64,000 nucleotides of DNA. It comes from Catenulispora sp. EB89. Lineage in GTDB: Bacteria; Actinomycetota; Actinomycetes; Streptomycetales; Catenulisporaceae. Location: assembly GCF_041261445.1 (NCBI RefSeq), contig NZ_JBGCCU010000007.1, forward strand, positions 124,001 to 188,000. Direction: 5' to 3'. A program made the translations under genes and the position numbers. Every line of letters starts with the position of its first letter. Positions within the stretch are counted from its first letter, which is position 1. A model generated the notes under the pieces. The model was not told where the DNA came from. It was given only the letters and a program-made list of their open reading frames with translations, and ran no database searches. Positions 32,583 through 33,723 of this stretch are shown piece after piece.

Positions 32583-32601
32583 GGCGACTCCTTCTGCACG
32601 T

Positions 32602-32633
32602 CATAGCCTCGTTGTACGAGTTCTGAGGCTATG
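32602..32633. promoter_or_regulatory. Nested inverted repeat upstream of the lipoprotein gene
   Basis: CATAGCCTC (32602-32610) and its exact complement (32625-32633) enclose 14 bases. A second dyad, CTCGT-TGT-ACGAG, overlaps it at 32608-32620. Position and size suit a repressor site for the minus-strand lipoprotein gene. Confidence 0.5.
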
Positions 32634-32704
32634 CGGAGCGCGAGAGGACCGGTCCTGAAAAACAGTTACGCGCACCGCCACCGCATCGAGTAACGTCTCC
32701 TCCA

Positions 32705-32839
32705 GGCCGTGACAGATCATCAAGGGAGGTGGTACCCGTGAACACTCGTTCGACGTGGGTGCTCCTCCTGCCGGTCACGGCCGGCGACTGACGCAGCTGT
32801 CGCCGGAGCGCCCCAAGGCACTCCTGGAAGGCGACAGCT
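32705..32839 (+). promoter_or_regulatory. Putative translational attenuator of the GNAT gene
   Basis: Four segments can form competing helices. GGCCGTGAC (32705-32713) pairs with GTCACGGCC (32774-32782). CCGGCGAC (32781-32788) pairs with GTCGCCGG (32799-32806). AGCTGTCGCC (32795-32804) pairs with GGCGACAGCT (32830-32839). All pairings are perfect. The last one ends at the base before the acetyltransferase ATG and takes in the end of its GGAAGG ribosome site. The first and third can coexist (closed state). The second excludes both (open state). Control by leader translation is inference. Confidence 0.55.
32738..32791 (+). CDS. 17-residue leader peptide before the GNAT-infA operon
   Basis: GTG start 7 bases after GGGAGGT, the best ribosome site in this part of the window. 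It encodes MNTRSTWVLLLPVTAGD, then TGA, 48 bases before the acetyltransferase ATG. The codons for VTAGD lie in RNA segments that can pair either with the region before the leader or with the region after it. Such a frame is typical of leader peptides that sense ribosome stalling. I do not recognise the peptide. Confidence 0.6.
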   Translation: MNTRSTWVLLLPVTAGD

Positions 32840-33511
32840 ATGAACGCCATCGCACATCTCATTCCCGACCCCGTGACGCCTGTGATCACGAGGGTCGCGG
32901 CAGATCAGTGGCACGCTATCGAAGACGACCTGACAGTCGGCCGCGGGAACACCTCGCGCCGTCCCGACGGACGGCTGTTCATCAGCATCGACGCGTGGCA
33001 CGACACGGTCTTCGACCAACTCGCCGCCGTCATGCTCGCGGAACTGCCGGCGCCGCTCTACACGGTGCTCGACGCCGAGGACTCGGCGACCGCCGAGAAC
33101 TGGCGCCGCGTCGGCTTCGTCGAACGGCGACGTGAGCGGCACTATCTGGTGCCTCTCGAAGCGCGGATCACTGTGCAGCCTCCCGCCGGCGTGACCTTCG
33201 GTGGCGGTGACGACGTGTACCGCGCCGAAGTTGATGCTTCCGAGGTCGGCCTGGTCCGTCTCATCCCCCTGATGAGCAGCGACGGGACGCCGCGCATCGC
33301 GCGGATCGCGTCCATCGAGGTCCACGCCGATCACCGGCGCCGCGGCATCGGCCGGGCACTCCTGGCCCACGCGCTGGACGCCCTGCGCGAGCGCGGGTTC
33401 CGGCTGGCATCGGCCGACGTCGCCGAGGACGACACCGCGGCGATCGTTTTGGCAGAAGGCGCCGGCGCGCGCCGTACGAGCAACAGCATGGAGTTGATGT
33501 GGCAAGACTGA
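32840..33511 (+). CDS. GNAT-family N-acetyltransferase
   Basis: A 223-residue protein. The C-terminal half is a GNAT domain with the acetyl-CoA-binding motif [20 protein letters not shown] (about residues 154-173). The N-terminal half ends in [21 protein letters not shown], which looks like the last strands of a degenerate GNAT domain, so this may be a tandem GNAT. The substrate is unknown. Context (leader peptide, overlapping IF-1 gene) suggests a link to translation or to an antibiotic that targets it. The start lies directly behind a hairpin that can hide it. Confidence 0.82.
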
Positions 33512-33723
33512 ATCGGGGCATCGAGGTTGAGGGCACTGTCATCGAGTGCTTGTACAACGCCAACTTCCGGGTGCAGCTCGACAACGGACACAAGGTGCTC
33601 GCGCACATCAGCGGGAAGATCCGCAAGAACTACATCAGGATCATGCCGGAGGACCGGGTGTTGGTGGAGCTCAGTCCTTATGACCTGACGCGCGGCCGGA
33701 TCACGTTCCGCTACCGGTCGTAG
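33499..33723 (+). CDS. infA: Translation initiation factor IF-1, second-type paralogue
   Basis: A 74-residue OB-fold protein matching IF-1 over its whole length ([47 protein letters not shown]). It differs from the usual actinobacterial IF-1 at the N-terminus (ARLNRG instead of AKKDG) and at several core positions. The housekeeping infA normally sits in a ribosomal-protein cluster (rpmJ, rpsM), which is absent here, so this is probably an extra copy. GTG 33499 overlaps the GNAT stop by 13 bases and has GGAG inside the GNAT gene. Its end overlaps the convergent ROK gene by 23 bases. Confidence 0.93.

Follow-up and report, generated by a model that had tools for sequence, protein, structure and literature searches.

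The window analysed here, a 64,000-nucleotide stretch of genomic DNA from Catenulispora sp. EB89, contains a short leader frame and a set of competing helices directly before a GNAT acetyltransferase gene. The question raised by this locus is whether these features form a regulatory RNA and, if so, what such an RNA would sense. In the erm/cat translational attenuators, a leader frame precedes a hidden gene start and a stalled ribosome frees that start; a preliminary description of the window had read the locus by the same logic. Comparison across actinomycetes points to a real and widespread leader RNA, without an entry in Rfam 15, that is best read as a peptide-independent translational attenuator. 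The more specific proposal, that the element belongs to a large actinomycete family of such attenuators sensing ribosomes arrested at the start codon, is put forward with a little more than even confidence.

Organization of the leader in Catenulispora sp. EB89

All features described here lie on the forward strand. The leader frame (VNTRSTWVLLLPVTAGD) has 17 codons at 32738..32791, from a GTG at 32738-32740 to a TGA stop at 32789-32791, and is preceded by a ribosome-binding site, GGGAGGT, at 32724-32730. Direct reading of the window agrees exactly with the earlier account of this frame and its site, and the three perfect helices reported with them are also where they had been placed. P1 joins GGCCGTGAC (32705..32713) to GTCACGGCC (32774..32782) through 9/9 pairs, and H2 joins CCGGCGAC (32781..32788) to GTCGCCGG (32799..32806) through 8/8 pairs. 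The third helix, H3, joins AGCTGTCGCC (32795..32804), which is overlapped by the 3' arm of H2, to GGCGACAGCT (32830..32839) through 10/10 pairs. It is the stem predicted to hide the gene start, and it ends one base before the GNAT ATG at 32840.

Two further pairings were absent from the earlier list. Segment A (32724..32740), spanning the leader's ribosome-binding site and its GTG, pairs with segment B (GGGTGCTCC, 32757..32765) to give GGGUGCUCC. Alternatively, B pairs with segment C (GGAGCGCCC, 32805..32813) to give GGGAGCGCC, a helix of 9 bp including one G-U; this B:C helix is the pairing predicted to depend on ribosome position. Segment C has a second partner in segment D (GGCACTCC, 32817..32824), and the GNAT ribosome-binding site, GGAAGG (32826..32831), is flanked by D and the 3' arm of H3.

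The GNAT gene (32840..33511; PF00583, 1.9e-12) has its nearest named homologue in Catenulispora rubra (82%). Its end is overlapped by an IF-1 (infA) gene (33499..33723; TIGR00008, 4.7e-34). This IF-1 is regarded as a paralogue, because the genome has another IF-1 gene, 71% identical to that of the window, adjoining frames that we take to be rpmJ and rpsM. A second copy of the leader was found in the same genome by DNA search (77% identity over the leader) and is a strong covariance-model match; the gene behind it was grouped by tblastn with the esterase-like hydrolases. Just upstream of this second copy lies a frame (L002 1005-1457) that is presumably MarR-like. The third model match in this genome, with an E value of 5.5, looks like chance.

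Distribution and downstream genes

Matches at E <= 0.001 were present in 96 of 147 related genomes. A covariance model was built from 74 aligned elements (alignment A2: 74 of 88 elements; thinning left 77, from which L004, L042 and L091 were removed, and the window took the place of L001). In an even sample of the class, the model matched 114 of 394 genomes and 43 of 138 genera at E <= 0.01. The architecture recurs, with its base pairs kept, both at the second locus of the same genome and in 114/394 genomes of the class, and so exceeds chance. All 13 genomes matched in a phylum sample of 296 (threshold 1e-4) are the window's own genome or belong to its order or class. A pattern scan of named genomes yielded at least 119 stretches, and the genera among the matches listed include Streptomyces, Nocardia, Micromonospora, Rhodococcus, Mycobacterium, Nonomuraea, Kribbella, Amycolatopsis, Actinomadura and Arthrobacter. 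Searches against Rfam 15 gave no match over the element, either in the window (E up to 5) or at eight member loci (E up to 1). Relatives of the leader type found before rifampin-monooxygenase-like (rox) genes were also present in 30 records of large actinomycete plasmids, and several of the best 15 of these 30 carry a rox or hydrolase annotation near the leader relative. A phage collection searched with one hydrolase-type leader gave no match.

After three weak matches and identical sequences were dropped, 178 aligned matches gave 172 distinct elements. The leader start was located by script in 168 of these. Among the exceptions, L125 and L084 have a GTG after a variant spacer; L036 and L049 are degraded copies that have no leader ribosome-binding site and no recognised gene behind them.

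The 172 elements precede hydrolase genes of type A (63), type C (21) and type B (5), as well as genes for GNAT (36), rifampin-monooxygenase-like (28), patatin-like (10) and PrmC-related methyltransferase (6) proteins; infA follows directly in one case, and nothing was recognised in two. The rifampin monooxygenase label comes from the match of the L005 protein to PDB 5vqb (6e-161). The full-length L109 protein, the one tested, scored above the NCBIfam NF033145 cut-off (819.6 vs 800), and the incomplete L005 protein scored below it; a S. venezuelae rox annotation (PLSDB) was found in 5 of the best 15 of the 30 plasmid records. For hydrolase L031, the nearest solved structure is an esterase (1.9e-16). 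Methyltransferase L178 matched TIGR03704 (2.7e-125) and patatin L123 matched PF01734 (3.3e-10). In all 36 GNAT-type elements (the window at 32840-33723 and 35 others), infA lies no more than 1500 nt from the leader, so that GNAT and IF-1 form a fixed pair. At L087 (2097-2244, minus strand), infA stands directly behind the leader, without a GNAT gene.

A predicted promoter upstream of the leader

A WhiB7/WblC-type box scoring 14/16 lies at 32657..32696 on the forward strand of the window, with GAAAAA at 32657-32662, a -35 hexamer TTACGC at 32666-32671, a 19-nt spacer and a -10 hexamer TAACGT at 32691-32696. The reference was the WblC motif GAAAWY, 3 nt, TKGMNN, 16-19 nt, TANNNT, as it appears in the accessible text of PMC7157823. 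Scores of at least 13/16 were obtained in 137 of 172 upstream regions vs 6 of 516 mononucleotide shuffles, and the box is at a fixed distance, starting 43-51 nt short of where the scanned stretch ends. At the window site, scanning for a plain TTGACA/TATAAT pair gave no promoter. From the position of the box, the transcript would start at about 32703-32704, at the foot of P1. A transcript starting downstream of 32740, which the preliminary description had named as evidence against its reading, is therefore unlikely.

The box is present in all GNAT (36/36), rox (28/28) and hydrolase C (21/21) elements and in 49 of 63 hydrolase A elements. It is rare before patatin (1/10), PrmC-like (1/6) and hydrolase B (0/5) genes. 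Since most elements of the last three classes lack it, leader and promoter are separable. Control of the leader genes by WhiB7/WblC is presumed from the motif.

Conservation of the pairings

The RNAalifold consensus of the 74 elements contains P1, A:B and C:D. P1 (helix 1) is paired in 89.0% of cells, A:B (helices 2 and 3) in 100% and 97.5%, and C:D (helix 6) in 94.0%. With H3 added, 89.1% of cells are paired, vs 40.5-44.8% when the partners are slid. Pairs with changes on both sides number 9 in the native alignment vs 5.9 in shuffles. GC-rich sequence pairs readily, and 87.0% of cells still pair after letters are shuffled among the sequences, as would be expected if the helices were chance pairing. 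However, chance would not account for recurrence in many of the sampled genera and before unrelated genes, nor for a closing leader frame and a promoter box at a fixed place, and its probability is considered negligible.

Native arms were compared with arms taken from other elements in a duplex test (n=168). Native arms of H3 were better in 142/168 elements, by 2.8 kcal/mol, and only H3 stood clearly above the controls, which were P1a-H3b (99/168, -1.1 kcal/mol) and A-D (83/168, -0.2 kcal/mol). The values for C:D (118, -1.1), A:B (113, -0.9) and H2 (104, -1.3) were near the higher control; B:C (104, -0.07 kcal/mol) and P1 (73, +0.15) gave no signal beyond invariance in this test. H2 is outside the covariance model. 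Because the hydrolase A elements sit in another register, it was scored in 60 of 91 rows, those with a common register, and was paired in 338 of 360 cells. At the two columns common to H2 and H3, H2 is kept in 56/60 and 58/60 rows, and H3 in 36 and 36.

The case for B:C comes from two positions. In 72 of 91 rows, the C base at alignment column 133 is opposed to an A of D, giving a C.A mismatch; the G of B at column 66 is left unpaired in the consensus A:B helix. These two bases are mutually pairable in 91/91 rows, and in the larger set the position after GGAG in segment C is complementary to B in 166/168 elements. The leaders fall mainly into a GGUACC type (58/168, including the window) and a GAGACC type (95/168). 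In folds of the GGUACC type, A:B offers the key G of B a partner as well, so that the positional argument for B:C is stronger for the GAGACC type.

A conserved frame without a conserved peptide

The start codon and GGAGGTG are kept across the elements. In 163 of 168 leaders the first stop is at codon 15-20, and none stops sooner; the +1 frame closes there in 2/168 and the +2 frame in 22/168. By script, segment B reads GGGTGC or GGGCGC in 167/168 elements; in the remaining one, L151, the script placed the anchor four bases too early, and GGGTGC is present there too. With this anchor corrected, B lies in frame 0, 1 and 2 in 25, 133 and 10 elements respectively (26/132/10 by script). Past their first residues, the leader peptides are unrelated, as in MNAVSTWVLPLPVMAGD, VNTVTHGCSLNPSRSGG and MNAIDVGAPPSRHGRRLM, and four peptide strings sought in print gave no match. 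Because the leader is closed at codon 15-20 although B is read in three frames, translation of the leader appears to matter and the peptide does not. What is preserved would be the points where the ribosome starts and leaves, not the product.

These results bear on an erm-type attenuator, in which a drug-bound ribosome is arrested on a specific nascent leader peptide. The general layout, a leader frame and a hidden gene start, fits this explanation, and the codons for STWVL are identical in both leader copies of the Catenulispora genome. However, across lineages the same segment is read in three frames and encodes unrelated peptides, and it is near-invariant at all codon positions. Arrest on a particular peptide is thus very improbable, and the nascent-peptide reading was dropped. 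Comparison supports the preliminary description well in so far as it proposed a translational attenuator built of a leader frame and alternative helices; the erm/cat part of that proposal was not supported. The description had also suggested a check in relatives for helix covariation and leader conservation. Frame closure (163/168), coevolution of H3 (142/168) and pairing of H2 (338/360 cells) agree with its reading; the lack of a conserved peptide does not.

The start codons of the 168 leaders are GTG (97), ATG (60), ATT (6), ATC (3) and GTT (2). The AUU, AUC and GUU starts occur in L150-L154 and L176-L181, where the WblC-type box is mostly absent. These eleven elements keep an A:B-like sequence, as would be expected of a structured RNA bound by a protein or small molecule, for which leader translation is unimportant. 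In the same eleven, however, the frame closes at codon 15-20 in 11/11 cases, vs 2 and 0 in the other frames, and all 157 of the other scored leaders start with ATG or GTG. A ligand-bound RNA of this kind is therefore improbable. The 11/11 closure would also fit the use of ATT, ATC and GTT as leader starts, which is suggestive only, as the eleven come from two gene classes and have an in-frame upstream GTG inside the ribosome-binding site. In five hydrolase A elements (L037, L060, L085, L089 and L169), the frame is longer than usual and extends in the direction of the hidden gene start, with 25 codons or no stop in 30.

Ribosome position and the proposed switch

In 166 of 168 elements, B begins 16-20 nt past the start codon, just outside a ribosome placed there. 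The effect of ribosome position was predicted by folding RNA ending just after C, with a footprint masked from -14 to +15, in 114 elements thinned from 163. Without a ribosome, the pairing of B:C was 0.04 and that of A:B 0.81. With the ribosome on codons 1, 2 and 3, B:C was 0.66, 0.61 and 0.14 respectively; it was 0.00 on codons 4-12 and climbed back to 0.30-0.39 on codons 15-17. In the window, B:C reached 0.81 on codon 1 and 0.98 on codon 2, and was 0.00-0.01 otherwise. In 57 of the 114 elements, the limit changed by about one codon with the footprint edge placed at +12 or +18, and B:C fell to 0.03 when C was shuffled. On the full element, again in 57 of 114, B:C was only 0.14.

On the basis of these folds and the comparison of elements, the following switch is proposed. 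In the resting RNA, A:B inside P1 would close the leader start, and C:D together with H3 would close the gene start. A ribosome initiating on the leader would open A:B. If it read through, it would disrupt B and the 5' arm of H2, upon which C:D would form and the gene would remain closed. A ribosome arrested on codon 1 or 2 would instead cover A and leave B just past its leading edge; once C was transcribed, B:C could form around H2, leaving D, the 3' arm of H3 and the gene ribosome-binding site open, and the gene would be translated. The switch would sense ribosomes that halt at initiation or immediately after it, irrespective of the peptide. As nothing past codon 2 is decoded in the arrested state, the predicted gating by codons 1 and 2 would explain the indifference to frame. 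The model needs B:C to persist until the gene has been loaded with a ribosome, and an antibiotic is the putative trigger.

Equilibrium folding of the complete element with ribosome footprints did not support such an early-arrest switch. With a ribosome on the start codon, the closed fold was better by 10.4 kcal/mol on average, the open fold was lower in 5/113 elements, and replacing B by its complement altered the result little. The difference of about 10 kcal/mol means that the switch would have to be kinetic. Also against the start-codon-arrest model are the low B:C value on the full element, the return of B:C on codons 15-17, the lack of compensatory change in B:C beyond near-invariance, the alternative partner of the key G in GGUACC-type leaders, the very small effect of ribosomes on codons 1-5 on the cost of opening the gene, and the five of 168 leaders that have no stop at codon 15-20.

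The main rival is a termination or coupling switch, in which a ribosome dwelling at the leader stop would cover the 5' arm of H3, so that the gene is on after full translation of the leader, more so with slow termination. Several observations are consistent with it. The stop ends 7-8 nt before C in 78 elements and 11-14 nt before it in 72, and in equilibrium folds the gene start becomes easier to open, by a median of 1.2 to 3.2 kcal/mol, when a ribosome occupies codons 17-20, vs about zero for codons 1-5. A PrmC-related methyltransferase gene lies downstream in one lineage, and the PrmC family acts on release factors. The leaders of L037, L060 and L085 pass beyond the hairpin with no stop in 30 codons. 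On the other hand, this switch gives no reason for the complementarity of B and C, nor for H2, the 5' arm of which such a ribosome would cover, and it predicts expression under normal translation. It is considered unlikely, while deserving more weight than the nascent-peptide and ligand explanations.

A wider form of the start-codon-arrest model is possible and is held with somewhat less than even confidence. The elements would constitute a class-wide switch that reads only the ribosome frozen at the start codon; it would be indifferent to the peptide, its frame would be free to shift, and its AUU, AUC and GUU starts would perhaps be tuned to initiation strength or fidelity. Placed mostly under WhiB7-type promoters, it would form a second, translational checkpoint before drug-modifying enzymes and a spare IF-1. 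If the start-codon-arrest model is correct, a widespread regulatory RNA not in Rfam 15 would be added to the actinomycete antibiotic response, and the GNAT-IF1 operon, the rifampin monooxygenase and several hydrolases would be tied to one signal. It would also provide a natural, peptide-independent reporter for ribosomes stopped at initiation and a testable reason for the non-AUG leader starts.

Comparison with known systems

No recognised description of this leader was found in openly licensed papers, searched without their supplements, which does not establish its absence from print. Structured-RNA and leader-frame candidates, some of them in Streptomyces, are presented in PMC11109978; they likewise come from comparative discovery and, in the accessible text, other genes are named. 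The accessible portions of PMC11109978 and PMC4833913 do not mention the element.

Two Streptomyces leaders, are5sc and tiaA, offer a precedent for the proposed switch. According to the accessible parts of PMC12421871, lincosamide-, pleuromutilin- and streptogramin A-type drugs arrest ribosomes at their start codons. The likeness lies in tiny Streptomyces leader frames, drug arrest at the start codon and resistance genes downstream. These leaders are proposed there to act by transcription attenuation, through terminators, although the tiaA reporters are inconsistent with that. In contrast, no terminator-like site was found at 32600-32900 of the window, and runs of T in the 30 nt preceding the gene never exceed 3, a length reached in 1 of 172 elements.

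The whiB7/wblC leader is also an actinomycete leader frame. In the accessible text of PMC11550727, it controls the regulator gene itself by transcription attenuation and answers to many translation inhibitors. Here, by contrast, it is the presumed targets of the regulator that carry the leader, and no terminator was seen.

The erm/cat attenuators share with the present elements a leader frame with its own ribosome-binding site, a gene start held in a hairpin and an alternative pairing that would free this start, features that are assigned here by comparison and prediction; the elements themselves, their closed leader frames, helices and promoter boxes likewise emerge from comparison of sequences. 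They differ in that arrest on a specific peptide defines the erm/cat type, whereas here the peptide varies, the segment being read in three frames. The present elements also stand before many unrelated genes, carry a WblC-type promoter in the main classes and have a gate that is predicted to lie at codons 1 and 2.
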